Source: Ornithinimicrobium faecis
Lineage (GTDB): Bacteria > Actinomycetota > Actinomycetes > Actinomycetales > Dermatophilaceae
Assembly: GCF_023923225.1 (NCBI RefSeq)
Contig: NZ_CP099489.1
Location: forward strand, 2,604,001-2,668,000
Length of the DNA: 64,000 nucleotides
Direction: 5' to 3'
A model generated the notes under the pieces. It was given only the letters and a program-made list of their open reading frames with translations, searched no databases and had not been told where the DNA came from. Positions 10,311-61,921 of this stretch are shown piece by piece. Every line of letters begins with the position of its first letter. Position 1 is the first letter of the stretch. A program made the position numbers and the translations under genes.

Positions 10311-10375
10311 GGCGTGCGAGACCTCTATCTTTTTGCGGGGAGGGTGTGCGAGACCTTTATCTTTTTGTGGGGGGG
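10311..10375 (+). repeat. Dispersed GTRCGARACCT repeat, cluster A (2 units)
   Basis: Two tandem units with a 32-nt period lie between argR and the phosphotransferase stop. Each reads GTGCGAGACCT, then three variable bases, then TCTTTTTG and a G run. The units start at 10314 and 10346 and differ at few positions. The same core recurs at 30254-30382, 43253-43339 and 61430-61493. The AT-rich TCTTTTTG tract is conspicuous in this GC-rich genome. The second unit runs into a GGGGCGCGGCGCCCC hairpin next to the stop codon at 10387. Confidence 0.85.
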
Positions 10376-10386
10376 CGCGGCGCCCC

Positions 10387-11382
10387 TCAGGGAGCGAGTC
10401 GCTCGCGCACCCAGGCGAGGCTGGCCACGGCGTGCGCGCGCTGGAAGGCCCGCAGGGTCGGCAGTCCCGTCGGCGGCGCCAGGCGGCTGGCATGCAGGAA
10501 GTAGCCGCACAGCGCCACCAGGACCGCGTCGATGTCCTCCCTGGTGGCGCCCAGGTCGGTCAACCGCCCCTCGTATGCCGTGGGGTCGGGTCCTCCGAGG
10601 AGGCGCAGGTTGAGCAGCAGGGTCAGGGTGTCGAACCAGGGCGCTCCGCGGGAGGCAAAGGGCCAGTCCACGACGCGGACCTGGCCGGTGTCAGGACCGC
10701 TGCCGGCTGCGCCGGGGCTGCTGCCGACGCCGGTGACCAGGAGGTTGTCGGCGCGAATGTCGGTGTGCACCAGATGATCTCCGCGCAACCGGCCCGGGGC
10801 GTCGGCGGCGACCGCGACGAGTCGGTCCAGGTTGTCGCGCACCCACGGGTCCAGGTCGTGCGGCGGGTCGGCGGCGAGGTGCGGCCAGCACGACAGGTCA
10901 CCAGCGATGTCCTCCTCCAGTCTGGGCAGCTCGATGGTCCGCGCCAACGGCTCGCTGACCAGGGAGCTCAGGGCCTCGAGCGTCGCGTCCAGTTCCGGGC
11001 CCACCCACGGAGTCTGCGGGTGCCTGCCGGGGATGTCCTCCACGAGCAGGGCGACCCAGCGCTCCCCCTCGATCCGCTCGTCGAGAGAGGACAGGAGAAG
11101 GGGCGCTGCGGCATACGGCGGCAGGTGGTCCAGGACCGCGATCTCGCGGGCGACCAGGTCTGGGGTGCGCGCGTTGAGGCTCTCGCCCACCGCCTTGACG
11201 AACGCGCTCCCCCGCGTGCCGTGCACCCGGTCGGCCGTGCCGGGCGAGAAGCCGCCCTGCTGTGGCGCCACCTCGGTGACCTCGCCGAGCTCCTGCGTCA
11301 CCCAGGCCCGCACCCGCTCAGGGAGATCGTCCCAGGTGATCCGCACTCCGTGGGACCTGATCGGCTCGGTGGACTCAGACAC
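10387..11382 (-). CDS. Aminoglycoside phosphotransferase-family kinase
   Basis: A 331-residue protein-kinase-like fold of the APH/choline kinase superfamily. The catalytic loop [10 protein letters not shown] and the metal-binding VVDWPFAS segment are intact in the C-terminal half. The N-lobe shows [11 protein letters not shown] in place of a glycine loop and a possible ATP-binding Lys in SAFVKAV. The substrate cannot be told from sequence; many such actinobacterial genes do not confer drug resistance. The start GTG (11382) has a -10-like TAACGT (11389-11394) 6 nt upstream, predicting a leaderless mRNA. Repeat cluster A lies directly after the stop. Confidence 0.82.
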
Positions 11383-11506
11383 GAGAGCACGTTAACAAGC
11401 ACGGATCGTGCTCACCCAGCGCCGTTCGGGTCCGCCACAGGACGGAGGGCGAATCTCCCTCGTGGTGGCGATGCGGGCCGAGCGCAGGTTCGGCAGTGTG
11501 GTGGTC

Positions 11507-11719
11507 ATGGATACCAACCAGAGCAAGAGCAAGCGTCCGGACCCCTCCTGGAATGGCCTGCTGGTCGGAGTCGTGATCGGCGTGATCCTGTCCATGGTGC
11601 TCGACAGCTGGGCCTGGATGGGGGCCGGTGTCGGCATCGGCCTCGTGCTGAGCGGGATGCCCCTGTTTGGCCGTCGCAAGGATGCCGGGGAGGAGTCAGA
11701 GCAGGCTGGGGACCGTTGA
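11507..11719 (+). CDS. Small two-helix membrane protein
   Basis: The predicted 70-residue product starts with a charged segment MDTNQSKSKRPDPSWNG. Two hydrophobic stretches follow (GLLVGVVIGVILSMVLDSW and MGAGVGIGLVLSGMPLFG), then an acidic/basic tail. This looks like a small integral membrane protein of unknown function; similar proteins are common in actinobacteria. The open frame extends upstream, but the upstream residues show no membrane or family pattern. It is divergent from the phosphotransferase gene. Function is unknown. Confidence 0.6.
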   Translation: MDTNQSKSKRPDPSWNGLLVGVVIGVILSMVLDSWAWMGAGVGIGLVLSGMPLFGRRKDAGEESEQAGDR

Positions 11720-11788
11720 CCCACAACACGCGATGGACTGCGACGGCGACTCTCCGGGCTCAGGGCCGGGCGGGTCGCCGTCGGTGAC

Positions 11789-12562
11789 TCAGGCCAGGGG
11801 GTCGTCGGCTCCCCAGGGCCGCAGTCGGAGCATGCGCTCCCCCTCGCCCAGGCCCTGCGCGGACTTGGCCCGCAGCACGTCCAGGTCGTCGGCACCGGCG
11901 CGCACCATCCGGCCGGAGAAGCCGTCGAGCTCGCCGTCGGCAATGGCCAGGGCGAGGGCCGTCAGGTCCTGCGGGCTCGTCCACTCGGTGCGGCCCTGGT
12001 GCATCTGCATGCTGTGCGTCATGTCGGTCTCAATAACGCCCGGGGCCAGGTCGAAGGCCTGCACATTGTGCTCGGCGCCCGCCACCGCGACGCCGCCGGT
12101 CAGGCGGGCCAGGGCGGATTTGCTGGCGTGATAGGCCGTCAGCACCGGGCTCTCCCGGGTGCCGGACCCACTGTTGAGGTTGATGACGCGCCCTCCACCG
12201 GCTGCGATCATGTGCGGCACCACGGCGCGGGTCACCAGGAACGGGCCGCGCACGTTGGTCTCCATCACCTGCCACCACTGCTCAGCGTCGGCCTCCCACA
12301 GGGGGACCTCCGGCTCGACCAGTCCAGCGTTGTTGACCAGCAGGTCGATCCGGCCGTCCTCAGCGATGACTGCGTCGACCACCGTCTGCACGGCTGCCTC
12401 GTCGGTCACGTCACAGGCGGTGGTGGGCTCCCCTGCCGGGTCGTCCCCTCCGCGACGGGACAGGCCGACGACCTGCCACCCCGCGCCGCGCAGCGCACCG
12501 GCCAGGTGGGCACCGATCCCACGGGAGGCGCCCGTGACGAGCGCCACCTTCGGCATACTCAT
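11789..12562 (-). CDS. Short-chain dehydrogenase/reductase
   Basis: The 257-residue protein has a classical SDR Rossmann fold. It shows the cofactor loop TGASRGIGAHLAG near residues 10-22, the NNAG motif, a Ser in LNSGSG, and the catalytic YHASK segment. It oxidises or reduces a hydroxyl/carbonyl substrate with NAD(P)(H); the substrate is not predictable. Its ATG overlaps the pheT stop codon (ATGA, 12559-12562), so it is translationally coupled to pheT. It is not a usual member of the pheST operon, so this coupling may be lineage-specific. Confidence 0.88.
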   Translation of the reverse strand: MSMPKVALVTGASRGIGAHLAGALRGAGWQVVGLSRRGGDDPAGEPTTACDVTDEAAVQTVVDAVIAEDGRIDLLVNNAGLVEPEVPLWEADAEQWWQVMETNVRGPFLVTRAVVPHMIAAGGGRVINLNSGSGTRESPVLTAYHASKSALARLTGGVAVAGAEHNVQAFDLAPGVIETDMTHSMQMHQGRTEWTSPQDLTALALAIADGELDGFSGRMVRAGADDLDVLRAKSAQGLGEGERMLRLRPWGADDPLA

Positions 12563-15108
12563 CGCTGCACCGCGCCGTGGTCCTTGGCCGCGCGCGCGAC
12601 CGCTGCGTCGCGGGCAGCGTTGACCTCCTCGGTCTTCAACGTCCGGTCCGGTGCCCGGAAGGTCAGGTGGAAGGCCAGGCTCTGCTGGTCGGCCCCGATC
12701 TGGTCACCGCGATAGGCGTCGAACAGGCGGACCGACTCCAGCAGGTCACCCGCGCCAGCCCGGACGGACTCGAGCAGGTCCCCGAAGCTGACGCTCCGGG
12801 AGACCGTGAGTGCGATGTCCGAGCCAGCCGGTGGGTGGTTGGACATCGGCTGGCCCTGGGCGCGACGGTCACTGGCCGCGATCAGCACGTCCAGATCGAG
12901 CTCGGCCGCGACGGTGCGCTCGGGCACGCCGAGGGCCTTGACGACCTTGGGGTGCAGCTCGCCGGCCCACCCGATGGTCGTGCCGTCCGGCAGTGCGAGC
13001 TCGACACAACGGCCGGGGTGGAACGGCTCCCGCTCGGTCTGCCGGCGCTCGACCACGACTCCGAGGGCGTCGCAGACGGCGTGGGCCCAGCCCACGACGT
13101 CAGTGACGTCGGTGGTGCGCCCTGCGCCCCACCACCCGGCACGTTCGGTCTGGCCGGTGGCGACCATTGCCACGTGCAGCGGCTGGTGCGGGACAGCGGC
13201 GCGGATCTCCTCCAGCACCCCGTCGTCGGGCCTGACGCCGACGCCTGGGACTGGTGCCTTGCGCGCCAGGTCCGGGAGCGTGACGGTGTCGATCTCGAAG
13301 AGCGCGACGTCCTTGGCGCCACGTCCCAGGTTGCGGCGCACCGCATCGGGGAGCGTCTGCAGCAACTCGGTGCGCATCAGGGGTGCCTCGTCGGACAGCG
13401 GGTTGGCCAGGCGCACGGCGTGGCGGCGCTGGTCATCCGCGGAGAGCCCGAGGTCATCGAAGCGGGAGTCGCCCACGAAGGGATAGGTGAGGACCTCGTC
13501 GAGGCCCTGGCCGGCCAGAGCGGCGGCCACGGTGCGACGCACCCGCTGGGCGTGGGTGAGACCGCGACCACCCGGGGCGGTCGGCAGCAGCGACGGGATC
13601 TTGTCGTAGCCGTCGATCCGCGCGACCTCCTCGACCAGGTCCGGGCCGGTGAGCAGGTCCGGGCGCCACGACGGCGGGGTGACCGTGAGGGTGTCGTCGC
13701 TGCCGGGCGTGACCGCGCACCCGATGATCTCCAGGATCTCGCGCACGCGGTCGGTGCTGTAGTCCACGCCGACATAGCGCGTCGGCATCGTGGGGTCGAA
13801 GTCGATCGACTCGGGGGCGCTGACCTGGCCCGCATCGGTCACGGCAGGGTCAGCGGAGCCACCGCCGAGCTCGACCATCAGCTCGACCATCAGCTGGGCC
13901 GCCTGCGGGGCGAGCTCGGGGTCGACCCCGCGCTCGAAACGCTTGGACGCCTCGCTGGAGAGCCGGTGCCGTCGAGAGGTGCGAGCGACCGTCTTGGGGT
14001 CAAAGTGCGCGGCCTCGATGAGCACATCAGTGGTGGTCTCACTGACCTCGCTGGAGGCACCGCCCATGACGCCGGCGATGCCGAGCACCGTCTCACCGCC
14101 AACGGTGATGAGCAGGTCCTCGGGGTCCAGCGCGCGCTCGACGTCGTCCAGGGTGGTGAGTTTCTCCCCGGCCCGAGCGCGGCGCACCACGATCGGCCCG
14201 GTGACCTTGTGCAGGTCATAGGCGTGCGTGGGCTGACCGAGGGCGAGCATCACATAGTTGGAGATGTCGACCGCGAGGCTGATCGGGCGCATGCCGGCCT
14301 CGGTGAGGCGGGTGGCCATCCAGGCCGGGGTCGGCGCCTGCGGGTCCAGGCCCCGCACGATGCGGGTGACGAACCGGTCGCAGCCGTCGGCAGCGTCGAG
14401 CGGTGCCTCGTCCTGCAGCTCGACGCCGAACCCGTCGGGCGTGGCCGCGGGGGCGGTCAGCGGCTGCTCCTGGCCGTCGACCACGCGCACCAGGGCCGGG
14501 TCGCGATAGACGACGCCGGTGCTGTGCGAGAACTCCCGCGCGATGCCGCGCAGGGAGAAGCAGTAGCCACGGTCCGGGGTCACGTTGACCTCGACGGTCT
14601 CGCGGTCCAGGCCGAGCAGCGCGATCGCGTCCTGGCCCGGGGTCAGGTCCTGCGCCCCGGCACCCAGCCAGTCGGTGAGCACGATGATGCCGTCGTGGTC
14701 CTCGCCGAGGCCGAGCTCCAGGGAGGAGCAGATCATGCCGGCGCTGACGTGGCCATAGGTCTTGCGGGCCGAGATCTCGAAGTTCCCCGGCAGCACACCA
14801 CCGGGCAGGATCACCACGACCAGGTCGCCGGCCGCGAAGTTGTGGGCACCACAGACGATGCCCTGGGGCTCGCCGGTGCCGTTGGCGTCGCCCACATCGA
14901 CCTGGCACCAGTTGATCGTCTTGCCGTTCTTCTGCTCCTCCGGAGTCATCTCCAGGACGCGGCCGACCACAAGGGGGCCCTGCACGTCACCGCCGTGCAG
15001 GCCCTCCTCCTCCAAGCCAACCCGGACGAGGTCAGCGGCCACCTGGGTGCCGGTCGTGCCTGCTGGCACCTCGGCATACTCCCTCAGCCAGTCAAGGGGA
15101 ACCCGCAT
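12559..15108 (-). CDS. pheT: Phenylalanyl-tRNA synthetase beta subunit
   Basis: The 849-residue subunit pairs with PheS in an alpha2-beta2 enzyme. Domains are visible in order: an N-terminal tRNA-binding EMAP-like domain (LVVGRVLEMTPE through ICSSLELGLGEDHDG), the B3/B4 editing region, B5, a catalytic-like core and the C-terminal anticodon-binding FDX-ACB domain (SNHPPAGSDIALTV, then YRGDQIGADQQSLAFHLTFR). A 12-nt tandem duplication gives LMVELMVELGGG (13868-13893). The ATG overlaps the pheS stop by 1 nt (TGATG). Confidence 0.96.
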   Translation of the reverse strand: MRVPLDWLREYAEVPAGTTGTQVAADLVRVGLEEEGLHGGDVQGPLVVGRVLEMTPEEQKNGKTINWCQVDVGDANGTGEPQGIVCGAHNFAAGDLVVVILPGGVLPGNFEISARKTYGHVSAGMICSSLELGLGEDHDGIIVLTDWLGAGAQDLTPGQDAIALLGLDRETVEVNVTPDRGYCFSLRGIAREFSHSTGVVYRDPALVRVVDGQEQPLTAPAATPDGFGVELQDEAPLDAADGCDRFVTRIVRGLDPQAPTPAWMATRLTEAGMRPISLAVDISNYVMLALGQPTHAYDLHKVTGPIVVRRARAGEKLTTLDDVERALDPEDLLITVGGETVLGIAGVMGGASSEVSETTTDVLIEAAHFDPKTVARTSRRHRLSSEASKRFERGVDPELAPQAAQLMVELMVELGGGSADPAVTDAGQVSAPESIDFDPTMPTRYVGVDYSTDRVREILEIIGCAVTPGSDDTLTVTPPSWRPDLLTGPDLVEEVARIDGYDKIPSLLPTAPGGRGLTHAQRVRRTVAAALAGQGLDEVLTYPFVGDSRFDDLGLSADDQRRHAVRLANPLSDEAPLMRTELLQTLPDAVRRNLGRGAKDVALFEIDTVTLPDLARKAPVPGVGVRPDDGVLEEIRAAVPHQPLHVAMVATGQTERAGWWGAGRTTDVTDVVGWAHAVCDALGVVVERRQTEREPFHPGRCVELALPDGTTIGWAGELHPKVVKALGVPERTVAAELDLDVLIAASDRRAQGQPMSNHPPAGSDIALTVSRSVSFGDLLESVRAGAGDLLESVRLFDAYRGDQIGADQQSLAFHLTFRAPDRTLKTEEVNAARDAAVARAAKDHGAVQR

Positions 15109-16202
15109 CAGATCTCCATCCCGAACTGCGCGTTGAAGCGCACGTCTCCCTCGATGATTTCGCGCATGTCAGCCAGGTGGTTGCGGAACATCAGCGACCG
15201 CTCGATGCCCATGCCGAAGGCGAAGCCCTGATAACGCTCCGGGTCGACCCCACAGGCGCGCAGCACGTTGTGGTTGACCATGCCGCAGCCGCCCCACTCA
15301 ATCCAGCCGGTGCCGCCACAGGTGCGGCAGTCCGTGTCCTCGCCGCGGCAGACGAAGCACTGGAAGTCCATCTCGGCGCTGGGCTCGGTGAACGGGAAGT
15401 ATGCCGGGCGCAACCTGGTCTTCAGACCGTCACCAAACAGGGCGCTGGCCAGGCGGTCCAGGGTGCCCCGCAGGTGGGCCATGGTCAGGCCCTCGTCGAT
15501 CGCCAGGCCCTCCATCTGGTGGAAGACCGGCGTGTGGGTGGCGTCGAGCTCGTCGGTGCGGAAGGTCTTGCCGGGCACGGCGACATAGAGCGGGGCGCCA
15601 CGCTCGAGCAGCGAGCGGGCCTGGCCGGGTGAGGTGTGCGTGCGCAGCACGATGCCGGCGTCGGCGGGGTCGACGAAGAAGGTGTCCTGCATCTGCCGGG
15701 CCGGGTGGTCCTTGTCGAAGTTGAGCGCGTCGAAGTTGAACCACTCCGCCTCGACACCGGGTCCCTCGGCGATCTCCCAACCCATGCCGACCATGACGTC
15801 GGCCATCCGCTCGGCGGTCAGCGTCAGCGGGTGCCGGTGCCCGAACGGGCGACGGTCCGGGCGCACCGTGAGGTCCATCGCCTCCTCGACCAGGATGCGC
15901 TCGTCCCGCTCGGCCTCCAGCTCGGACTGCCGGGACGCAAGGGCCTTGTTGACCTGCCCGCGGGCCTGGCCGACGCGCTTGCCGGCCTCGGCCTTGGCAC
16001 TCGGCGGCAGGGCTCCGATCTCGCGGTTGGCCAGCGCCAGCGGGCTCTTCTCGCCCGCGTGCGCGATGCGCGCGGCCTTGAGGTCGTCCAGGCTGGCTGC
16101 AGCGGCAATGGCGGCGAGGGCGTCGGTGACGTTCTGCTCGACCTGTTCGGGATCGAGGGCGCTCACCTCGACAGGGTCATAGTTCGTGTTGGGTCCGGAC
16201 AC
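15108..16202 (-). CDS. pheS: Phenylalanyl-tRNA synthetase alpha subunit
   Basis: The 364-residue class II subunit has an N-terminal coiled-coil segment that contacts tRNA. A catalytic core follows with motif 2 (FRTDELDATHTPVFHQMEGLAI is split across this region) and motif 3 (GFAFGMGIERSLMFRN). A CFVCRGEDTDCRTCGG insertion contains four cysteines and may bind zinc, as in other actinobacterial PheS proteins. The GTG start at 16202 follows a -10-like TAGACT (16210-16215) by 7 nt, which suggests a leaderless mRNA that begins pheS-pheT-SDR. Confidence 0.96.
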   Translation of the reverse strand: MSGPNTNYDPVEVSALDPEQVEQNVTDALAAIAAAASLDDLKAARIAHAGEKSPLALANREIGALPPSAKAEAGKRVGQARGQVNKALASRQSELEAERDERILVEEAMDLTVRPDRRPFGHRHPLTLTAERMADVMVGMGWEIAEGPGVEAEWFNFDALNFDKDHPARQMQDTFFVDPADAGIVLRTHTSPGQARSLLERGAPLYVAVPGKTFRTDELDATHTPVFHQMEGLAIDEGLTMAHLRGTLDRLASALFGDGLKTRLRPAYFPFTEPSAEMDFQCFVCRGEDTDCRTCGGTGWIEWGGCGMVNHNVLRACGVDPERYQGFAFGMGIERSLMFRNHLADMREIIEGDVRFNAQFGMEI

Positions 16203-16263
16203 GCGCCCGAGTCTAAGTTGCCGAGGGTGCCCAGGACGAACGGGTTGTGCTTCGACTCACCGC

Positions 16264-16986
16264 TCAGTTCGGCGGGAACAAATCGTCCCCGGACGGGACA
16301 GGCGGACACTGGTCGATGGTCTCGAAGGGCAGATCACCAGCCGTCTGCGCGATCCATTGATCGCCCCTGGCCCGGTACGTCTCGACGTAGACCTCCACGC
16401 TCGGAGGCTCAGGGGTCGTATAACCCAAATCTTGCAAGCACGGAATGGTGGTGTTCACGTGATACTCGTAGGACTGCCGCAGTCGGGCATCGTCGAGGGG
16501 CTGATAAAACTGCGGCTGCAGCGGATACTGCGCGATACAGACATATTCCGCCAAGGCGATTGCCTCCGCTTGGCCTGGCCCGCCGCGCGTCTCCCAACTC
16601 TGGTCCGGAAAAGCTCTGGCCTCAAACCCCTGCTCTCGAACGCAATCCGCGACAAGCTCCCCCATCTCTTCGGGACGAGTCTCCCGAACGACCTCCACTT
16701 GAGGCGGATCCTCGATTCCCCGACTGTCTGCCCACCCCGCGAGCCATCCTTCGGGCGTGTCCTTCCAAGCAAGAACGCCGTCACTCGGGGCCACGGTCTC
16801 ACCAGCCCTGGCGCTCGATGCGGACACGCTGGTCTCTGCATCGCTGGTCCGCAGCGCAGCGCCAGTCTCCACAGCACCGGACGGCACGGGGGGCTCAGAG
16901 TTCTGTTGCACATCCTGCGGCCCTCCGCATGCGGTGAGGAGCAGGACGGTTATCAGACCCACGCCCTGCAGAACACCTCTGGACAT
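16264..16986 (-). CDS. Putative lipoprotein
   Basis: A 240-residue secreted lipoprotein by its signal: MSRGVLQGVGLITVLLLTAC ends at the lipobox Cys, followed by GGPQDVQQNSE. I chose the ATG at 16986 because GGAGGGG precedes it at 5 nt. The mature part is Glu/Pro-rich with paired Cys residues (VADCVREQGF and VCIAQYP, then IPCLQDLGY) that may form disulfides outside the cell. No family is recognised. Its base composition is lower in GC than the flanking genes and it separates trmH from pheS, so it may be a later insertion into the conserved block. Confidence 0.8.
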   Translation of the reverse strand: MSRGVLQGVGLITVLLLTACGGPQDVQQNSEPPVPSGAVETGAALRTSDAETSVSASSARAGETVAPSDGVLAWKDTPEGWLAGWADSRGIEDPPQVEVVRETRPEEMGELVADCVREQGFEARAFPDQSWETRGGPGQAEAIALAEYVCIAQYPLQPQFYQPLDDARLRQSYEYHVNTTIPCLQDLGYTTPEPPSVEVYVETYRARGDQWIAQTAGDLPFETIDQCPPVPSGDDLFPPN

Positions 16987-17040
16987 CTCGCCCCTCCGGC
17001 AGCCTGTCGCACGACCCACGACGGTGTGGTCGCTCACATG

Positions 17041-17853
17041 CTAAGGCAACAGCATGCGCGACGATGAGGCGTGAAGGCAGACTGTCGCGGCCATCGCCAG
17101 ATTGAGCGACTCCGCACGCACGATCGGGATGGACACGACGTCGTCGCAGAGGTCACGAACCTCGGGCTCCAGGCCCCACGCCTCGTTGCCCATCACCCAG
17201 GCGTGTGGAACGGACAGGTCTGCGTCAGGCAGCGACGTGGTGCCGGAGCCGTCGGCGGCCAGGATGCGAAGGCCGGCCGCCTGGCACGCGGCCAGCAGCT
17301 CAGCCACGGGAGTGCCGACGCTCACCGGCAGGTGGAACAGCGACCCCACCGTGGAGCGCACCACCTTGGGGTTGTAGATGTCGACGCTGGCGTCGCTCAC
17401 CAACACCGCGGACGCCCCGAACGCATCAGCGGCTCGCAGGACCGTGCCGGCGTTGCCGGGATCGCGCACGTTGGTGAGCACCGCGACGAAGCCGTCCCCC
17501 ACGGCAGCCAACGCCTCGGCCAGTGGAACGTCCACCGGGGCAGCGACGGCGATCATGCCCTGCGGGTGTGGGGTGTCGGTCATGGCGGCCAACACCTCGT
17601 CCGTGCACGGACGCACCCGGACACCGGCCTGCTCGGCCAGCCCCACGATGTCGGCGTGCCGCTCAGCAGCAGAGGGGGTGAGATACAGGTCTCGGGCGAC
17701 CGATCCGGCATACGAGAGCAGTTCCCGGACGCCCTGAGGGCCCTCGACCACAAAGAGTCGCTGCCGCTCCCGGACAGCACGACGGCCCAGGGACCGGACC
17801 GACCTGACCCGTTCGCTGCGAGCGTTGCTCAGCAGGTCGGGGTCGGTGGTCAC
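17041..17853 (-). CDS. TrmH-family (SpoU) RNA 2'-O-methyltransferase
   Basis: The 270-residue protein has an N-terminal L30e-like substrate-binding region (FVVEGPQGVRELL) and a C-terminal knotted SPOUT domain. SPOUT motif 1 is NVRDPGNAGTVLRAADAFGA, motif 2 is WVMGNEAWGL and motif 3 is IPIVRAESLNLAMAATVCLH. It uses S-adenosylmethionine to methylate a ribose in rRNA or tRNA; the exact site is unknown. It lies 32 nt after rplT in the conserved order infC-rpmI-rplT-trmH-pheST. It starts with GTG. Confidence 0.93.
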   Translation of the reverse strand: MTTDPDLLSNARSERVRSVRSLGRRAVRERQRLFVVEGPQGVRELLSYAGSVARDLYLTPSAAERHADIVGLAEQAGVRVRPCTDEVLAAMTDTPHPQGMIAVAAPVDVPLAEALAAVGDGFVAVLTNVRDPGNAGTVLRAADAFGASAVLVSDASVDIYNPKVVRSTVGSLFHLPVSVGTPVAELLAACQAAGLRILAADGSGTTSLPDADLSVPHAWVMGNEAWGLEPEVRDLCDDVVSIPIVRAESLNLAMAATVCLHASSSRMLLP

Positions 17854-17885
17854 AGTGCCCTGGGCCGTCGGGATGTTGCGGTGGC

Positions 17886-18281
17886 TCAGGCGGCAGAGGT
17901 GTCGTCGGCCTTGGCGTCAGCCTGGGCCGGAACGTTGGCCTTGGCGATCTCGACGAGCGCGGTGAAGGCTGCCTCGTCGTGCACGGCCAGCTCGGCCAGC
18001 ATGCGACGGTCGACCTCGACCTCGGCGATCTTCAGACCCTGGATGAACCGGTTGTAGGTCATGCCGTTGGCGCGGGCCGCAGCGTTGATGCGCTGGATCC
18101 AGAGGCGACGGAAGTCACCCTTGCGGGCGCGACGGTCACGGTAGCTGTAGACCAGCGAGTGGGTGACCTGCTCCTTGGCCTTGCGGTAGAGACGGGACCG
18201 CTGGCCCCGGTAGCCGCTGGCGCGCTCGAGAACAACCCGACGCTTCTTGTGGGCGTTGACCGCCCGCTTCACGCGTGCCAC
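17886..18281 (-). CDS. rplT: 50S ribosomal protein L20
   Basis: The 131-residue basic protein begins [19 protein letters not shown] and contains [19 protein letters not shown], both L20 signatures. L20 binds 23S rRNA early in 50S assembly. The C-terminal tail is slightly longer than the E. coli protein and acidic. It lies 32 nt after rpmI in one operon with infC. In many bacteria L20 represses this operon by binding its leader; I cannot tell whether that happens here. Confidence 0.97.
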
Positions 18282-18313
18282 GTGAGAACTCCTTTAGTTG
18301 ATGGGGTGCTGGC

Positions 18314-18508
18314 TCAGCGGCCGAGCAGCTTCTTGGCGGTCTTCTCGTCCGGGGCGGACAGGACCTTGTCGTTGGCCAGGCGACGGGCCGCGGTGGCGGT
18401 GCGCTCCTGGAACTTGTGGACGTGGCGGGCACGCTGGTGCATGATCTTGCCCGTCCCGGTCACCCGGAAACGCTTCTTGGCGCCGCTGTGCGTCTTCATC
18501 TTCGGCAT
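18314..18508 (-). CDS. rpmI: 50S ribosomal protein L35
   Basis: The 64-residue protein starts MPKMKTHSGAKKRFRVTGTG and ends DEKTAKKLLGR, both diagnostic for L35. It is the middle gene of infC-rpmI-rplT. A GAGGAG-like ribosome site lies just upstream of the ATG at 18508. It is complete and of normal length. Confidence 0.97.
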   Translation of the reverse strand: MPKMKTHSGAKKRFRVTGTGKIMHQRARHVHKFQERTATAARRLANDKVLSAPDEKTAKKLLGR

Positions 18509-21043: not shown

Positions 21044-21102
21044 GAACTTCTCCTAAAACTCAGTTCACGGGATGCCCAGACCTTAGCTGTGGCCTCTGAC
21101 GC

Positions 21103-29496: not shown

Positions 29497-30270
29497 ATGA
29501 GCACGTCCAAGGGCAAGGGCCTGGTTCTGGGCATCGACATCGGCGGCAGCGGCATCAAGGGTGCCCCCGTGGATCTGGACAAGGGCGAGTTCGCGACCGA
29601 GCGGATCCGCATCGACACCCCCAAGAAGGCCAAACCTCAGGACGTCGCTGAGATCGTCGCGCAGATCGCGGACGACTTCGCTGACGAGGTTGGCAAGGAC
29701 TCCCCCGTCGGTGTGACCGTCCCGGCCGTCGTTCACCACGGCGTGACCCAGAGCGCCGCCAACATCGACGACTCCTGGATCGACACTGATGCGGACAAGT
29801 TGTTCACCAAGGTGCTCAAGCGACCGGTGGTGGTCATGAACGACGCCGACGCCGCCGGCGAGGCCGAGGTGCACTATGGCGCGGGCCGGGACGTGAAGGG
29901 CGTCGTGCTGCTGACCACCCTGGGCACCGGCATCGGCTCAGCCCTCTTCCTCAACGGCCAGCTGGTGCCCAACACGGAACTGGGCCACCTGGAGCTGGAC
30001 GGCAAGGAGGCCGAGCACCGGGCCGCCGCCAGCGTCCGGGAGGACAAGGACCTGTCCTGGGAGGAGTGGGCCGAGCGCCTGCAGGACTTCTATCGCCACG
30101 TTGAGGACCTGTTCTGGCCCGAGCTGATCATCGTCGGCGGCGGGGTCTCCAAGAAGGCCGACAAGTTCCTGCCGCTGCTGGACCTGCGCACCAAGATCGT
30201 CCCCGCAAAGCTGCGCAACGACGCCGGCATCATCGGCGCCGCCTGGCACGCCTCCCACCAAAAAATATAA
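29497..30270 (+). CDS. ppgK: Polyphosphate glucokinase
   Basis: The 257-residue ROK-superfamily kinase phosphorylates glucose with polyphosphate or ATP. The phosphate-binding loop [16 protein letters not shown], the [10 protein letters not shown] catalytic Asp region and [20 protein letters not shown] with GHLE are present. The ATG (29497) follows GAGGAG. Start sites farther upstream lack support. The last codons (CAC CAA AAA ATA TAA) lie inside repeat cluster B and are unusually A/T-rich, so the C-terminus has been replaced or extended by the repeat. It converges on guaB1. Confidence 0.93.
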
Positions 30271-30382
30271 AGGTCTCGCACGCCTTCCCCAGCTTTTGAT
30301 AAAGGTTTCGCACGCCCGTCCGGCGTACGAAACCTCTACGAAAATGCGTGGGACGTGTACGAAACCTTTATCTTTTTGCGGG
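30254..30382. repeat. Dispersed GTRCGARACCT repeat, cluster B (4 units, inverted)
   Basis: Four units fill the gap between convergent ppgK and guaB1. Two are in reverse orientation (30254-30284 and 30285-30316) and two are direct (30321-30352 and 30353-30382), so the cluster can fold into a long imperfect hairpin. The outer units carry ATTTTTT or TCTTTTTG, and the inner ones AAAAG or AAAAT. The left unit supplies the ppgK stop codon and the right unit abuts the guaB1 stop at 30383. It may act as a bidirectional terminator here. Confidence 0.85.
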
Positions 30383-31849
<1,467 letters not shown>

Positions 31850-42472: not shown

Positions 42473-43171
42473 TCAGGGAGCGGCAGTATGCCGATCGGCC
42501 AGGTCCGCGATGATCGTCGCCAACTCGGTGGGCGCGCTGGTCATCGGCCAGTGGCCGCTGTCGATGTCGACATAGTCGAGGGTCGTGGCCGCTGCCAGCT
42601 CGGGCACATCACCCGAGGCGACCCACTCCTTGGCGTCGTCCGGTCCAAACTCGGGACAGATCAGGGTGACGGGCACTGCGGACCGCCGCTGGTCGGCATA
42701 CTGCACGATCCCTCGGCTGACGCCCACCGGCACCGCCACCATGGCAGCCTCCATCTCCGCCCGGGTCGCCTCGTCGAGGTCTGCCGAGTCCGGCCCCTCA
42801 AACGCCGGCCACCCCGGGAAGGCCATCTGCCCGTCCACGGGCTCGAAGAAGTCGGCATAGGCCGCGCCGTCCGAGCTGGGGAATCCCCCGATGAGCCCGA
42901 CCGCCGAGACCTTTTCGGGCCGCCGGTCGGCCGCCAGCCAGGCCAGGGTGCAGGCCGCCGAGTGGCCGATCACCAGTGCCTTGCCGTCTGTTGCGTCGAC
43001 GGCGGCCACCGCGCTGGCGATCTGGTCCTCCAGCGTGGCCGCGTCGTTGCCGTCCCCCTGCCCTGGCAACGTCACCGGCACTGCGCGGTGCCCACGGGCG
43101 GACACCTCCTGCGCCACCGCATCCCAGGCATCGCCGGTCAGCCACAGCCCACCCAGCAGGATCACATCCAT
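42473..43171 (-). CDS. Alpha/beta hydrolase
   Basis: A 232-residue alpha/beta hydrolase with the nucleophile elbow GHSAACTLAW, an oxyanion region LLGGLWLTGDAW and a C-terminal catalytic His in DSGHWPMTS. The acidic residue is probably in ICPEFGPDD. No specific substrate can be named. It starts at 43171 after an AAGGAG-like site. The divergent gap upstream contains repeat cluster C. Confidence 0.87.
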   Translation of the reverse strand: MDVILLGGLWLTGDAWDAVAQEVSARGHRAVPVTLPGQGDGNDAATLEDQIASAVAAVDATDGKALVIGHSAACTLAWLAADRRPEKVSAVGLIGGFPSSDGAAYADFFEPVDGQMAFPGWPAFEGPDSADLDEATRAEMEAAMVAVPVGVSRGIVQYADQRRSAVPVTLICPEFGPDDAKEWVASGDVPELAAATTLDYVDIDSGHWPMTSAPTELATIIADLADRHTAAP

Positions 43172-43252: not shown

Positions 43253-43339
43253 CCGGGAAGGCCTCGTACGTCTTCCCCCGCATTTTGAGGCAGGTCTCGT
43301 ACGCCCCACCCGCATTTTGAGGGAGGTCTCGTACACCCT
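43253..43339 (-). repeat. Dispersed GTRCGARACCT repeat, cluster C (3 units)
   Basis: Three tandem units, read on the minus strand, lie between the divergent hydrolase and FMN reductase genes. Two carry CGTACGAGACCT and then CTCAAAATGCGGG. The third (43253-43272) is degenerate, with CGTACGAGGCCT. The position between diverging starts shows that the family is not only a terminator. The array may influence either promoter. Confidence 0.85.
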
Positions 43340-55079: not shown

Positions 55080-55138
55080 CGTAGGTGGCACAATGGTGCG
55101 CCGCAGCGCTGCGCGGGTCACCGGGCTGAGCGCCGCAG

Positions 55139-55211
55139 GGGCCTGTAGCTCAGTTGGTAGAGCATCGCGTTTACACCGCGGTTGTCGTCGGTTCGAGCCC
55201 GGCCGGGCCCA
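55139..55211 (+). tRNA. tRNA-Val (UAC anticodon)
   Basis: A complete 73-nt cloverleaf: acceptor GGGCCTG/CGGGCCC, D-stem GCTC/GAGC, anticodon stem TCGCG/CGCGG with loop TTTACAC (anticodon UAC), and T-stem GTCGG/CCGGC around TTCGAGC. The 3' CCA is not encoded. It reads GTA valine codons. Confidence 0.97.
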
Positions 55212-55281
55212 CGCACGCGCCATCCGGTGGGCACCCCATGGCGACCTTGGGCACTCCGGCGCAGACTGTGGCACGTCAGCA

Positions 55282-55345
55282 CCCTCAGATCACCGCAATG
55301 GGCAGTTGCAACGCCCTCAGATCACCGCAGCGGGCAGCTGCGACA
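55282..55345. repeat. 32-nt tandem duplication of the ctlX 3' end
   Basis: Two 32-nt units, each beginning CCCTCAGATCACCGCA (55282 and 55314), differ at a few positions. The right unit holds the last codons and stop of ctlX; the left unit is a downstream copy including an equivalent stop. Confidence 0.85.
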
Positions 55346-56294
55346 CTTGGCCCTGTGTCGTGCCCGCCTGGGGGCGCGCGTCGAGGTGGATGCTCGCCAG
55401 CATGCAGCGCACTGAGCCACCAGCCAACTCAATGGTGGGGACGTCGAGCGGCAGCAGGGTGCAGCTGCGCTCGATGATCTCGCGCTGCTCGTCGCTGAGC
55501 GAGGCTGCGGCGCGGGTCGAGAGTGCCAGGAAGCGCTCCCCGTCCTCGCCCTCGAGCTCGATCGCGTTGCCCGCAAAGTCGTGGATCTGCTGATCACTCA
55601 GCTCCAGCACGTGACGCTTGCCCCGGCGCCCCGCCAGTCGCTCGACCACCTCGGCCCGCCGGGCGGGGTCAGTGATCATCGACAGCCCGATGAGCACAAA
55701 GTCCGAGGCAATGCACATCAGCACATTAGTGTGATAGACCGGCGTGCCGCCCTGGTCAGCGGCATCGAAAGCCATGGGTTCATACCCGAACGTCGTGCAG
55801 AACCGTTCCAGCACAACGGGGTCCGCCCGACGGGACCGAGCGGCATACGCAATCCGGGAGAGGTGGTCGAGCACCATCGCACCGGTGCCCTCCAGGAAGA
55901 TGTTGTCGTATTCCAACCCGGAGTAGTCGATGACGTCCTGCACGCGATAACGCGCCTTGAGCATCTCGACGATGTCGGGGCGTCGCTCGGTGCGCCGGCT
56001 CGGCGCATACATCGGATAGAGGGCGACCCGTCCCCCAGCGTGGGTGGAGAACCAGTTGTTGGGAAAGACGCTGTCCGGGCGGGTGGCGTCCTCATCGTCG
56101 AAGAGGTGGACCGTGACCCCCACGGACTCGAGTGTCTCCGCGGCCCGCGTCACCTCCTGGAACGCCCGGGCCGCCAACTCCTCGGGGTCACCCGCGGCCG
56201 CGACCTGGAAGGCGTTGTCCGCCGCAGTGTCGGGGTTGGGGGTGAACTTGTGGGGACGGATCATCACCACGGCACCGGGGGCCTGGACTGGCAT
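55317..56294 (-). CDS. ctlX: Citrulline/arginine deiminase-superfamily hydrolase (CtlX-like)
   Basis: The 325-residue guanidine-modifying enzyme shows FPNNWFSTHAGGRVALYPM, the acidic LEGTGAMVLD segment, the His of PVYHTNVLM and the catalytic Cys in GGSVRCMLASIHL. Family members hydrolyse citrulline or arginine-like substrates; the exact one is inferred. The ATG at 56294 has GAGGT upstream. Its 3' end is duplicated in tandem, giving an alternative downstream stop. Confidence 0.85.
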   Translation of the reverse strand: MPVQAPGAVVMIRPHKFTPNPDTAADNAFQVAAAGDPEELAARAFQEVTRAAETLESVGVTVHLFDDEDATRPDSVFPNNWFSTHAGGRVALYPMYAPSRRTERRPDIVEMLKARYRVQDVIDYSGLEYDNIFLEGTGAMVLDHLSRIAYAARSRRADPVVLERFCTTFGYEPMAFDAADQGGTPVYHTNVLMCIASDFVLIGLSMITDPARRAEVVERLAGRRGKRHVLELSDQQIHDFAGNAIELEGEDGERFLALSTRAAASLSDEQREIIERSCTLLPLDVPTIELAGGSVRCMLASIHLDARPQAGTTQGQVSQLPAAVI

Positions 56295-56410
56295 GGACAC
56301 CTCACTTCGGGTTGGCGGACTGCGCTGTTGCCCAGCGCTGCTGACACGAGTGTCCCACCCTTGGCGCCCGGGACGTCCCTCCCCGGTCGCCGGCTTGTCC
56401 CACCCTGCGG

Positions 56411-56893
56411 TCAGAGGTCCTTGACGGCGGCGTGGAGCACGCCGATGTCGCGCTGCTCGCCGGGACCGTTGACCAGGCTCCACACGATCCGCATCTGCGG
56501 GTCGACCACGAAGGTGCCGCGCACGGCCATGCCGGACTCCTCGTCGAAGACGCCATAGGACCGCGCGACCTCGCCGTGCGGCCAGAAGTCGGACAGCAGC
56601 GAGAAGCGATAGCCCTCGTGCGCCGCCCAGGCCGCCTGCGAGTGGCCGGGGTCGCAACTGAGGGCATAGACGTTGACGCGCTCGTTGACGAACTCGTCCA
56701 CGTTGAGCTGGATCTCCAGCAACTCACCGGTGCAGATGTTGGAGAACGCGAACGGAAAGAAGACCAGCAGCGCGTGCCGGTCCTGCACGACCTGCGAGAG
56801 CGTGATCGTGGCACCGCTCTGGTCGATCAGGGTGAAGTCTGGCGCCGTGTCACCGACCTGGGGTGGCAACAGCAGCGCCGCGTCGACGGTCAC
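56411..56893 (-). CDS. Peroxiredoxin (AhpE-like)
   Basis: The 160-residue thioredoxin-fold peroxidase reduces hydroperoxides. The peroxidatic Cys54 lies in FPFAFSNICTGEL, and Arg in GMAVRGTFVVD is conserved. No clear second Cys is visible, so it is probably a one-Cys enzyme like mycobacterial AhpE. The GTG at 56893 overlaps the DUF3052 stop (GTGA); the ATG farther upstream would overlap that gene by 34 nt. Confidence 0.92.
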   Translation of the reverse strand: MTVDAALLLPPQVGDTAPDFTLIDQSGATITLSQVVQDRHALLVFFPFAFSNICTGELLEIQLNVDEFVNERVNVYALSCDPGHSQAAWAAHEGYRFSLLSDFWPHGEVARSYGVFDEESGMAVRGTFVVDPQMRIVWSLVNGPGEQRDIGVLHAAVKDL

Positions 56894-57309
56894 CGTCGGC
56901 CCACCAGGCGCTGGGCGTGCCACTGGTCGCCCTCCCCGAGGGGCACGGCTCCGCTGGCAGTCAGGCCAGCGGTGTTGCAGGCCTCCTGCACGTCGTGCGC
57001 GGGCACGCGGTCACTCCGGCCGGCGCCGGGGGTCACCAGCGCGATGAAACCGCCGTCCTCCAGGAGCGCGAGGCAGTCGACCAGCTCGTCGGTCAGGTCG
57101 CCATCGTCCTCGCGCCACCAGACCAGCACGGCGTCGACGACCCCGGTGTAGTCCTCACCTTCCAGAGCGCTCCCGACGACCGCCTGAACCTGTTCGCGGA
57201 AGGCTTCGTCGACGTCGTCGTCGTAGCCGTATTCCAGCACGATCTGGTCGTGTGCGAACCCCAATTTGTCTACCGCGCCACCCCGTGGGCGGGTCCCTTC
57301 GTCAGCCAT
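56890..57309 (-). CDS. DUF3052 protein
   Basis: The 139-residue protein starts MADEGTRPRGGAVDKLGFAH and contains LEYGYDDDVDEAFRE and VVDAVLVWWREDDGDL, typical of DUF3052, a family near aceE and ahpE in actinobacteria. Function is unknown. The start could be three codons upstream (GTG at 57318). It is divergent from aceE and coupled to the peroxiredoxin gene. Confidence 0.85.
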   Translation of the reverse strand: MADEGTRPRGGAVDKLGFAHDQIVLEYGYDDDVDEAFREQVQAVVGSALEGEDYTGVVDAVLVWWREDDGDLTDELVDCLALLEDGGFIALVTPGAGRSDRVPAHDVQEACNTAGLTASGAVPLGEGDQWHAQRLVGRR

Positions 57310-57529
57310 AGTGACCACAGTCCACTAGAGAACGGCCGCAGAGGCAAGACGCGACACGCGCGCAACCTCCGGGACAGGGGCACCAGCAGGGACACAAGCG
57401 GGGGTATGCCGCATGGTCCGGCGGGTGGGGAGGTGCGGGTCGGCGGGTGTGGGGTGGGCCATGCGGCCACCGTACCCGTCGTGCGAGGATGACTGAAGGA
57501 GAGTGCTGCTCGCAGTGGAAGGAACGTCA

Positions 57530-60280
57530 GTGACAACCAAGAAGCCGGGTCCGATCGTCAACGGCCTGCCCAGTCAGATCCCGGACACCGACCCCGAGGA
57601 GACCCAGGAATGGCTGGACTCCCTCGACGGTGCCATCGACTCCGGTGGGCGGCGCCGCGCGCGTTACCTGATGCTCAAGATGCTGGAGCGGGCCCGAGAG
57701 TCCCAGGTCGGCATCCCCTCGCTGACCACGACTGACTACGTCAACACGATCCCGCCCGAGCGCGAGCCCTGGTTCCCCGGTGACGAGGACGTCGAGCGGC
57801 GTTACCGCGCGTGGATCCGCTGGAATGCCGCGGTGATGGTGCACCGAGCACAGCGCCCGGACATCTCCGTGGGCGGGCACATCTCCACCTACGCCTCAGC
57901 GGCGACGCTCTATGAGGTCGGCTTCAACCACTTCTGGCGGGGCCGCGACCACGAGGGCGGTGGTGACCAGATCTTCTTCCAGGGGCACGCCTCCCCCGGC
58001 ATGTATGCCCGCTCCTTCCTCGAGGGACGCCTGGAGGAGGAGGACCTGGCCGGGTTCCGCCAGGAAAAGTCGCACATCGTCGACGGCAAGATCCGCGCGG
58101 TGCCGTCCTACCCGCACCCGCGCAGCATGCCGGACTACTGGCAGTTCCCGACGGTGTCCATGGGCATCGGGCCGATGAACGCGATCTATCAGGCCCAGTT
58201 CAACAAGTACCTCCACAACCGCGGCCTGAAGGACACCTCCCAGCAGCACGTCTGGGCCTTCCTGGGCGACGGCGAGATGGACGAGCCTGAGTCGCGTGGC
58301 CTGCTGCACGTCGCCGCCAACGACGAGCTGGACAACCTGACGTTCGTGGTGAACTGCAACCTGCAGCGACTGGACGGCCCGGTCCGCGGCAACGGCAAGA
58401 TCATCCAGGAGCTGGAGTCCTTCTTCCGCGGCGCCGGCTGGAATGTCATCAAGGTCGTCTGGGGCCGCGGCTGGGACGAGCTGCTGGCGGCCGACCCCTC
58501 CGGTGCCCTGGTCAACCTGATGAACGCCACGCCGGATGGTGACTACCAGACCTACCGCGCCAAGGACGGCGGGTTCATCCGCGACCACTTCTTCGGCCGC
58601 GACCCGCGCACCAAGGAGCTGGTCAGGGACTGGTCCGACGAGCAGGTGTGGTGGGCGCTGAAGCGCGGCGGTCACGACTACCGCAAGGTCTACGCGGCCT
58701 ACAAGGAGGCCATGGAGCACACCGGTCAGCCGACCGTGATCCTGGCCAAGACGATCAAGGGCTACAGCCTCGGCTCCAACTTCGCGGGCCGCAACGCCAC
58801 GCACCAGATGAAGAAGATGACCGTGGAGGACCTCAAGTCCTTCCGCGACGGGCTGAAGATCCCGATCACCGACGAGCAGATCGAGAAGGACCCCTACGCT
58901 CCCCCGTTCTATCGCCCGGCCGACGACGACCCGACGCTGCAATACATGCGCGAGCGCCGGGCCAAGCTCGGCGGCGGCCTGCCCAAGCGGCAGCCGGCGA
59001 AGGCGCAGAAGCTGGCCCTGCCCGGTGACGACACCTACAAGGTGGGCAAGAAGGGCTCGGGCAAGCAGCAGATCGCCTCGACGATGGCCTTCGTGCGCAT
59101 CTTCAAGGACCTGATGCGCGACAAGGAGTTCGGCAAGCACATCGTGCCGATCATCCCGGACGAGGCACGCACCTTCGGCATGGACAGCTTCTTCCCGACG
59201 GCCAAGATCTACAACGTCCACGGCCAGAACTACACCTCCGTGGACGCCGAGCTGATGCTGGCCTACAAGGAGTCCGAGCAGGGTCAGCTGCTCCACCTGG
59301 GGATCAACGAGGCCGGCTCGGTCGCTGCCCTCACCGCCGCCGGCACGTCCTACGACACCCACGGCGTGCCGATGGTGCCGTTCTACGTCTTCTACTCGAT
59401 GTTCGGGTTCCAGCGCACCGGTGACGGCATCTATGCCGCAACCGACCAGCTGACCCGCGGCTTCATGATGGCCGCCACCGCCGGGCGCACGACACTGACC
59501 GGTGAGGGCCTGCAGCACGCCGACGGACACGGCCACCTGCTTGCCTCCACCAACCCCGCCGTCGTGGCCTACGACCCCGTCTATGCCTACGAGATCGCGC
59601 ACATCGTGCAGGACGGCATCCGGCGGATGTATGGCGACAACCCCGAGGACGTCCTCTACTACATCACCCTCTACAACGAGCCGATGGTGCACCCGCCCGA
59701 GCCCGAGGGCGTCGATGCCGAGGGCATCCTGAAGGGAATGCACCGCATCGCCGAGGGCGGCAGTGGCGACAAGAATGTGCGCCTGCTCGCCTCCGGTGTG
59801 GGCGTGCCCTGGGCCCTGGAGGCTCGCGACCTGCTCGAGCAGGACTGGGGCGTGACGTCCGAGGTCTGGTCGGTGACCTCCTGGACCGAGCTGCGCCGCG
59901 AGGCGATGCGCTGCGACGACGAGCGCTTCCTGCACCCCGAGAACGAGCGCAAGGTGCCCTACGTGACCCAGCGCCTGTCCGAGGGCACCGGCCCAGTCAT
60001 CGCCACGAGCGACTCGATGCGTGCCGTGCACGATCAGATCGCACCGTGGGTGCCAGAGGACTACTACGCCCTGGGCGCCGACGGGTTCGGGTTTGCCGAC
60101 ACGCGGGCGGCTGCGCGCCGGTTCTTCCACATCGACGGCCCGTCGATGGCGGTCAAGGCCCTGCAGATGCTGGCCGACCGCGGCGAGATCGACGCCAAGC
60201 TCCCGCAGGAAGCGATCGAGAAGTATCAGCTCCACGACGTGCGCGCCGGCACCAGTGGTGTGGCTGGCGGCGACGCCTAA
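57530..60280 (+). CDS. aceE: Pyruvate dehydrogenase E1 component
   Basis: The 916-residue homodimeric E1 decarboxylates pyruvate with thiamine diphosphate and passes the acetyl group to E2. The ThDP motif is [20 protein letters not shown] through [20 protein letters not shown], and [16 protein letters not shown] and the C-terminal transketolase-like half are intact. The GTG at 57530 follows GGAAGGAA at 5 nt. Its TAA overlaps the stop of the convergent glycerophosphodiesterase gene, so no terminator separates them. Confidence 0.97.
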
Positions 60281-61299
60281 CCGGACCCTGGCTGCGCCTG
60301 CGCCCGGGCCTGCACGCCCAGGTCGGTGTGGTCGGTGAAGAAGCCGTCCACACCGGCAGCCAGGTGCGCCCGGATCTCGGCCACCACATCGCCGGCCGCG
60401 CCCGGGTCGCCGCCTGCTCCCCGCAGGTCGGTGGGCAGGAAGGCGTTCTCCCGGCGAAAGGTCCACGGGTGCACGACGAGTCGGGCCTCGTGCGCGTCGG
60501 TCACCAGTGACGTGGGCTCCCCCAGCGTGCCGTCCGCCCCCGGCGCGATGACCAGGTCCTTGTGCGGTCCGATGCCGTCGACCCACCGCGCCAGCTCGGC
60601 CAGCCCGGCGGGCGTCAACAGGTCGGCGAACGTGCGTGGGTCCTGCGCCGCGACGAAGTCGTAGGGGGCGCCTGCCGCCTCGGCGAGGAAGACCAGTGGC
60701 GCGCGGGCACCGAGGTCGCGGCGCAGGTGGATCAGGTTGCCCAGCTCGAAGGACTGCAGGAAGACCGGTGCCCCGTCCTCATTCAGGCCAGCTCTCTCCA
60801 GCACCGCGACCAACGGCTCATCGAGGGGCAACCCGATGTCGCGGAAGTGGGTCGGGTGCTTGGTCTCGGGGTAGACCCCCAGGTCACGTCCGAGCTCTGC
60901 AGAGAGCCGGGCGCGCAGGTCGAGGATCTCCTCCAGCGTGGGCACAGTGAACTGCCCGTCGTATGCCGTGTTGCCCGGGCGCAGGTCGGGCAACCGTTCT
61001 CGGCAGCGCAGGGTCCGCAGCTCGGCCAGGGTGAGGTCCTCGGTGAACCACCCGGTGACGGTGTGGCCGTCGATCACCTTGCTGGTCGCCCGGTCGGCGA
61101 ACTCGGGGTGGTCGGCGATGTCGGTGGTGGTGCTGATCTCGTTCTCGTGCCGGGCGACCAGGTGTCCGTCGGCGGTCGCGACCAGGTCGGGCTCGAGATA
61201 GTCCGCACCGAGCCGGGCTGCCAGCTCATAGGCCGCCAGGGTGTGCTCGGGCCGTGCCCCGCTCGCTCCCCGGTGCGCGATCAGGATCGGCTCAGGCAT
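60277..61299 (-). CDS. glpQ: Glycerophosphodiester phosphodiesterase
   Basis: The 340-residue TIM-barrel enzyme splits glycerophosphodiesters to glycerol-3-phosphate and an alcohol. Catalytic His9-Arg10 lie in [18 protein letters not shown], with [17 protein letters not shown] next. The end reads [14 protein letters not shown]. No signal peptide is visible, so it is probably cytoplasmic. It overlaps the DinB-fold gene by 8 nt, and its TAG stop overlaps the aceE TAA on the other strand. Confidence 0.93.
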
Positions 61300-61921
61300 C
61301 CGCTGCGCCGCTCGTCGGGAGACGGTCGCCAGCGCCCACGTCGTGCAGGTGGTGGGCCAGGTCGTGCACCAGATAGCGCGCTAACGACAGCGCGGTGAAC
61401 TCCGCCCCGTCCGAGCGCTGCGCCCCCCTCCCCCACAAAAAGATAGAGGTTTCGCACGCCTCTCCCGCATTTTCATCAAGGTTTCGTACACCCTCCGGGG
61501 ACCCCCCTCCGTCAAACCGGGCCAGGATGTCAACGAGCGCCGTGGTGCGCTCTGGGATCTCGCGGGCGAGGACGACCGGGTCCTGGGCCGCATAGTCGCC
61601 CTCGATCGAGGCGGCGTCCTGGTCCCAGTTGGGCAGCAGCGGGTTGTCCTCGCTCAGCACCAGCTCGAAGCGACCGGCAAAGACGTCGAGCACCTCGTGG
61701 ACGTGCGCGGCATACTCCAGTGGCGACCAGGTGGTGGGCTGCGGCCGGACCCGCACGTCCTCCCGGGTCAGCACGTCCTGCCACGGGGCCGTCAGGGCGG
61801 GGATCAGGTCGCCGAGGTCGGCAGCCGCAACGGTGGAGGCGTCAAAGCCGCACTCGGCGCAGCGACGCTGCGTCGTCCAGGTCCAGTCCTTGGTGTCGGG
61901 CGCGATGGGATCGGTGCTCAT
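61292..61921 (-). CDS. DinB-fold protein carrying an in-frame repeat insertion
   Basis: A 209-residue DinB/YfiT-like four-helix protein with metal-binding His in EYAAHVHEVLDVF and LVHDLAHHLHDVG, and an N-terminal CAEC pair. Residues about 144-166 ([20 protein letters not shown]) are encoded by repeat cluster D, between helix 3 (TALVDILARFDGG) and the final helix (SDGAEFTALSLARYLV). Homologs normally have a short loop here. The frame is kept across both repeat units. Substrate unknown; thiol-dependent transfer is common in the family. Confidence 0.82.
   Translation of the reverse strand: MSTDPIAPDTKDWTWTTQRRCAECGFDASTVAAADLGDLIPALTAPWQDVLTREDVRVRPQPTTWSPLEYAAHVHEVLDVFAGRFELVLSEDNPLLPNWDQDAASIEGDYAAQDPVVLAREIPERTTALVDILARFDGGGSPEGVRNLDENAGEACETSIFLWGRGAQRSDGAEFTALSLARYLVHDLAHHLHDVGAGDRLPTSGAADA
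61430..61493 (-). repeat. Dispersed GTRCGARACCT repeat, cluster D (2 units, in a gene)
   Basis: On the minus strand the first unit (61461-61493) reads GTGTACGAAACCTTGATGAA then AATGCGGG. The second (61430-61460) reads GCGTGCGAAACCTCTATC then TTTTTGTGGG. Together they add about 64 nt and no stop codon to the DinB-fold gene. The two alternative 3' blocks (AAAAT and TTTTT) occur side by side. Confidence 0.88.

Follow-up and report, generated by a model that had tools for sequence, protein, structure and literature searches.

We analysed a window of 64,000 nucleotides from Ornithinimicrobium faecis (bases 2604001-2668000 of a 4.62-Mb single-contig genome), in which short units with the core GTRCGARACCT lie in four clusters. 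Array 1 (10311..10372, + strand) has two T-tract units (cores 10314-10324 and 10346-10356) and runs antisense to an APH (phosphotransferase-like) gene of the - strand; the stop triplet of this gene (10387-10389) lies 15 nt past the array. On the other side of the array is an ArgR gene, which starts near 10259 by our own gene call. The second cluster has two arrays. Array 2a (30255..30317, - strand; two units, cores 30271-30281 and 30303-30313) is antisense to a ROK-family gene, and the TAA stop of this gene (30268-30270) falls within the last unit. Array 2b (30321..30382, + strand; two units, cores 30325-30335 and 30357-30367) is antisense to an IMP dehydrogenase gene, whose TGA stop (30383-30385) follows the array without a gap. 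At this junction, six sister species have other motifs, either in arrays or as single units.

Array 3 (43253..43339, - strand) consists of two CCT-subtype units with A-tracts (cores 43292-43302 and 43324-43334) and a degenerate unit (core 43259-43269). Its neighbours on either side are divergent genes, starting at 43171 and 43402, which makes it an exception to the stop-codon rule described below, and the orthologous site in the sister genome G152 is without an array. Array 4 (61431..61493, - strand; two units, cores 61447-61457 and 61479-61489) lies inside the ORF 61292-61921, in the sense direction. We found it to be an in-frame insertion: the ORF has 21 more codons than its counterpart in G152 (61% amino acid identity) and 22 more than that in a second sister, G153.

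All eleven units that a preliminary description of this DNA had placed in four clusters are present, as ten exact cores and one mismatched core (43259-43269). At up to one mismatch, the window holds 13 core matches versus 3.46 expected, and none of 100 shuffles reached 13; the remaining two one-mismatch matches, at 14524 and 42038, look like chance. The repeat had been proposed to be a dispersed family, and a whole-genome search bore this out with many further copies: 217 exact cores (115 forward and 102 reverse) versus 5 for a reversed-pattern control. An assembly artefact, about which the description had cautioned, is ruled out because the arrays differ from one another and because orthologous arrays occur in independent assemblies. 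These orthologous arrays and the excess over the control leave negligible room for an origin in chance, low complexity or faulty assembly.

We examined 68 stretches around listed core clusters together with the window and found 207 exact cores, 10 of which were set aside as chance matches, the remainder of the unit being absent. A weight matrix applied to these stretches and the window gave 225 units in 88 arrays, with one unit in 3 arrays, two units in 49, three in 21, four in 14 and five in 1; by eye, the single-unit arrays at 2230867 and 4121566 have a degenerate second unit in the flank. A profile search of the same genome gave at least 194 matches and led to five more arrays beyond the 88. 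Three of these five belong to a minority subfamily that has ACCG where the others have ACCT and that forms whole arrays (stretches L233-L235 of this genome, G000:C1:1448000-1458000, 1176000-1186000 and 2941500-2951000).

An exact full-unit scan of genome contigs, a set in which this genome or a very near one is possibly not included, gave no match, and a looser scan of the same set gave one, in O. murale DSM 22056. A scan of viral contigs gave no match to the unit. At gathering thresholds, Rfam returned rRNAs, RNase P and a tRNA from the window.

Unit anatomy and spacing

The unit reads GTRCGARACCT-NTAYN-WWWW-TGCGGG followed by a free spacer, about 32 bp in all. The two alternative 3' blocks first described are better taken as a W-tract (AAAA, TTTT or mixed) and then GCGGG; in the eleventh unit (43259), which is degenerate, the AT block is missing. 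T-tracts cluster in the last unit of an array (44/88 last units versus 17/136 others; Fisher p 1.6e-9).

The tandem period near 32 nt noted earlier holds in the window, where it is 32 or 33, and across the genome, where it is 31 or 32 in 134 of 137 gaps (core-to-core spacing of 32 bp in 109, 31 bp in 25 and another value in 3). Hence, successive cores lie three helical turns apart. Gaps of two periods, as expected from a decayed interior unit, were absent among the 137. Nine positions of the core are fixed, each deviating in at most 2 of 52 interior units, and the spacer positions are free to vary; this conservation is partly ascertained, since the core was used to locate the arrays and the weight matrix to locate the units. 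We compared each two-unit stretch with its nearest relative in another array and found a maximum of 91.7% identity, with 0 of 109 at 95% or above. Hence, near-identical copies are absent, and nothing points to recent spread.

Direct arrays of 2-5 units make up 85 of the 88, the other 3 being single units, and orientations are mixed in 6 of the 88 clusters. Units toward the 5' end are more degenerate (17/87 versus 8/88, p 0.054), a polarity of decay that is suggestive only.

We folded the 88 arrays as RNA and found no hairpin signal in the sense of the array (mean z +0.13; 6 below -2 and 5 above +2). In antisense, the arrays are unusually unstructured (mean z +0.99; none below -2 and 17 above +2). 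Since they fold no better than shuffles, both hairpin terminators and structured RNAs are disfavoured, and we rejected them as candidates.

Placement relative to genes

From the variety of neighbouring gene arrangements, the preliminary description had concluded that no single role such as terminator explains the arrays. That position follows no rule was wrong: in most arrays the AT-block end adjoins the stop codon of a gene on the opposite strand. Using gene positions from our own simple codon-usage caller rather than a standard annotation, we found the stop of an opposite-strand gene at the 3' end of 60 of the 88 arrays. Within -25 to +30 bp, this arrangement holds for 53 of the 88, versus 8 for the mirror arrangement, in which the 5' end meets a stop on the same strand (p 3e-9). 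Among the 54 arrays of this genome with a stop in reach, the stop falls inside the last unit in 24 (offset 11-20 from the core start) and beyond it in 30 (offset 23-53). The exceptions include 21 of the 88 arrays, in which the 3' end points at a gene start. Arrays inside ORFs run in the sense direction in 7/7 cases here and in 2/2 cases in relatives, and the unit has no stops in its sense reading.

The stop-codon rule recurs in sisters that carry other motifs. Of the 41 arrays in G152 and G153, 33 face a stop on the opposite strand, and in 23 of these the offset is the same to within 1 nt; abutment was found in 32 of the 41 versus 7 in the mirror arrangement (p 7e-5). The 41 were left after a tract filter removed 4 of 45 candidates. 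The 20 stretches from G153 were contiguous around the orthologue of the window; for G152, 14 stretches and 2 of 20 more were chosen for containing motif matches, and the other 18 were contiguous around the window's orthologue.

The main rival to the explanation that we develop below builds on this rule. On this view, a host DNA-binding protein would bind the array cooperatively and block or terminate transcription where the antisense gene ends, the specificity of this protein would have co-evolved with its sites, and insertion or de novo origin would be secondary. We consider this possible but unlikely. In its favour, antisense abutment of the stop codon is seen in three species with different motifs, the three-turn spacing is fixed and orthologous sites are held in common. 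In a descriptive comparison at tandem genes, hairpins are few in the stretch after an array, with a z below -2 in 1 of 22 cases (mean -0.09), versus 19% of 116 controls (mean -0.94). At convergent pairs, however, hairpins after the array are as abundant as in controls (27 cases, mean z -1.21; 58 controls, mean z -1.45). Arrays also occur within ORFs, in the promoter regions of divergent genes and before dnaJ, several sites are empty in sisters, and no candidate protein was found.

A second rival places the function in RNA, as a 3' UTR element of the antisense gene such as a Rho-utilisation (rut) tract exposed after the stop codon. Read in the sense of the abutting gene, the arrays of this genome have the unstructured character given above (mean z +0.99, 17/88 above 2) and more C than G (0.327 versus 0.222), as this reading would have it. 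In the same sense, however, G exceeds C in G152, in G153 and in the GGTCC-type units; the Rho tract was rejected because the bias toward C over G is not kept in sisters. Arrays inside ORFs and in promoters do not fit either, and Rho does not need a strict 11-bp core, which we also counted against an RNA-level element. All told, such an element is improbable.

Two observations concern the neighbours themselves. In this genome an array lies directly upstream of dnaJ (Pfam DnaJ, L097:2466-3600), in sense, and by eye an array stands before the start of apparently the same dnaJ gene in G150 (L156). Arrays also adjoin two genes for peptide-chain release factors (domains PCRF and RF-1, GGQ motif; G000:C1:2926978-2928097 in L078 and 3727827-3728925 in L092), which among 144 neighbours may be coincidence.

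Sister species and turnover at orthologous sites

Among the 186 genomes of the bacterial family that were searched, the repeat is confined to a single clade, which comprises seven Ornithinimicrobium-type species. The unit profile matched 7 of the 31 genus genomes, with counts that are lower bounds: 194 in the genome of the window (G000), 26 in G152, 24 in G163, 9 in G153 and 2 each in G150, G159 and G165. A more general pattern for the right half, RACCNCYMYVARAATG, gave 41 matches in our genome, 66 in G152, 59 in G163, 56 in G165, 42 in G153, 33 in G159 and 22 in G150, and 0-2 in each of the other 179 of the 186 family genomes. In a tree of IMP dehydrogenase genes from 20 of the 31 genus genomes, the seven species with arrays are monophyletic (100/100), and the arrays probably have one origin in this clade.

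We compared orthologous sites in about 0.4 Mb each of G152 and G153, where 12 of 79 loci of our genome had flanks; locus #23, with flanks of 68-69% that are probably paralogous, was dropped. In G152, five sites are occupied (#47, 49, 54, 56 and 57) and five are empty (#46, 50, 51, 52 and 53), of which #52 and #53 are one region that is possibly missing from G152 as a whole. In G153, three sites are occupied (#49, 54 and 57), two are empty (#48 and 51), #56 is doubtful and #50 is not assignable. This makes 15 resolved sites, 8 occupied and 7 empty.

At none of the 8 occupied sites did we find the exact core of our genome, the nearest core-like word differing at 1-3 positions. The exact core is likewise found in 2 of 97 units of the G152 candidate arrays and in 0 of 14 of those of G153. 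The sister genomes are mixtures of left motifs rather than having one each (G152 holds several left halves); the right half is common to the sisters, and our genome is dominated by the GTRCGARACCT left half. Hence, with sites that are occupied, empty or differently lettered, some are shared, some were gained or lost, and the lettering has turned over. Because sister arrays at some of the same spots use a different motif, the word that is recognised seems to vary from one species to the next.

Mechanism and comparison with known systems

We tentatively favour the explanation that the arrays are a clade-specific, non-autonomous, dispersing family of direct repeats, recognised by a putative sequence-specific protein whose motif drifts between species. 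The module would be two or more direct units, three helical turns apart, and a putative sequence-specific DNA-binding protein (recombinase, nuclease or transposase-like) would recognise and spread it. The modules are placed mainly in antisense, right behind stop codons, and in ORFs were found in sense only; the preferred left-half motif would have drifted among species while the right half stayed common. The in-frame case and the empty orthologous sites support the probable insertion of a two-unit module; by eye, a target-site duplication, which together with terminal inverted repeats marks IS-derived MITEs, was not apparent in six usable site alignments. We infer a trans-acting protein because the core is near-invariant, the phase is fixed and the motifs have shifted; that this protein would drive the spread, and the direction in which the motif may have changed, we infer as well.

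The dispersing family is weighed down by several results: a cognate gene was not found among the neighbours or the paired-array interiors inspected, near-identical copies are absent, 21 of the 88 arrays face a gene start, and the sisters are mixtures of left motifs. Both the mobile short repeat and the protein-binding array that were first suggested stay in play, but the RAYT partner suggested with them is absent: Y1_Tnp (PF01797) was found in 0 of 31 genus genomes and was detected in 5 of 14 control genomes. No recombinase or other mobiliser recurs among the 25 listed of 198 Pfam families from the neighbouring genes (124 of 144 scanned; 20 left out, 5 for a low coding score and 15 others), nor does a mobiliser recur among the families listed from a PHROGs scan of these genes. 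We considered paired arrays of the form '-- X ++' as a composite element and rejected them; by eye, X comprises ordinary host genes with no shared mobiliser. Between two outward-facing arrays lies an IS3-type OrfA-like ORF (HTH_Tnp_1; L065, G000:C1:2214546-2215174), which we take to be an IS remnant.

The junction of the ROK and IMP dehydrogenase genes (window 30270-30383; L101-L119) is a hot spot. Elsewhere in the genus it holds AbiEi_4 genes by Pfam, with their own repeats (L109 and L118), genes that are of AbiEi_4 type by likeness only (L117 and L119) and further repeat blocks (L106); L115 gave no Pfam match. DUF559 genes in the genus look like single-gene units, and the three loci examined for repeats (G000:C1:2065797-2066616 in L061, L222 and L226) have gene-specific inverted short-repeat arrays (arms of 51 nt with 82%, 73 nt with 79% and 85 nt with 76% complementarity) that are unrelated to the GTRCGARACCT family.

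Single-gene elements of the AbiEi/DUF559 type have inverted short-repeat arrays of their own on either side in this genus, and it is very unlikely that the present arrays are cognate repeats of such elements. The AbiEi_4 genes at the shared junction in other species (L109 and L118) and the gene-specific inverted repeats at the three DUF559 loci speak for such a link, but a unit of the general motif was near 0 of 12 DUF559 loci of the clade (flanks up to 1.5 kb; DUF559 genes only), and the single DUF559 gene of our genome is flanked by other repeats. DUF559 was rejected as the cognate gene.

In a further reading, about a hundred sites per genome would co-evolve with one drifting recognition protein, and the array would be a true gene-end element, not a parasite. 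Behind the same kind of stop codon, the seven sisters would then have re-lettered their left halves and kept position, orientation, 32-bp phase and right half. We regard this joint claim as one that could be right but probably is not; the change in the left half is strong in the sisters sampled, though G152 has several left halves at once. If it held, it would show sites and their factor co-diverging at gene 3' ends in a bacterial system.

The family adds a phased direct repeat without hairpin signal or RAYT to the few bacterial interspersed repeats, and its placement rule, antisense and abutting a stop codon, is sharp. Seven sisters with the same class of site in different letters are a natural experiment on whether such arrays are parasites or gene-end elements, and they also inform how DNA-recognition specificity shifts at a hundred sites at once. 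We consider the family a variant among known bacterial interspersed repeats; we did not find an earlier description of it in the literature searched, and our claim of novelty reaches as far as those searches.

That the arrays are REP, BIME or REPIN sequences mobilised by a RAYT is extremely unlikely. The lifestyle is similar: REPs are high-copy, short, mostly extragenic and downstream of genes, with some intragenic copies, and their termini often supply the stop codon (available portion of PMC3733652). Their families include GTAG- and CGTC-tagged repeats, some of them species-specific (available portions of PMC3733652 and PMC3116915). In contrast to the stem-loop palindromes and inverted doublets of REPs and REPINs, the 88 arrays fold no better than shuffles and 85 of them are direct, with a fixed 31-32 bp period, and a cognate RAYT is absent from the 31 genus genomes searched. 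Hence, they are not REPs. Some units (CTAC variants) contain GTAG when read in reverse, with no palindrome attached.

The arrays also differ from CRISPR arrays, which have unique spacers of about the length of the repeat; here the 32-bp period leaves about 6 freely varying bases. Rickettsia palindromic elements (RPE) insert in frame into coding genes (available portion of PMC10969869), as array 4 does, but RPEs, palindromic by name, have a length of about 150 bp, whereas here a 32-bp direct repeat has few intragenic copies. The AbiEi/DUF559-type genes with their flanking inverted short-repeat arrays share with the present family the genus, one common junction and short iterated repeats, but the sequences differ and a DUF559 gene was not found beside GTRCGARACCT arrays.

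Nearest in form, as generally described, are the mycobacterial interspersed repetitive units (MIRU), actinobacterial tandem direct repeats in gene junctions. Their insertion was reportedly linked to stop codons, at 'DTGA' sites, by Supply et al. in 1997. MIRU units are longer than the present unit and have the same sense as the operon, with insertion in the translational direction at stop/start overlaps. The GTRCGARACCT arrays are likewise tandem direct repeats in gene junctions, but their 32-bp unit is shorter and most of them lie in antisense behind the stop codon.
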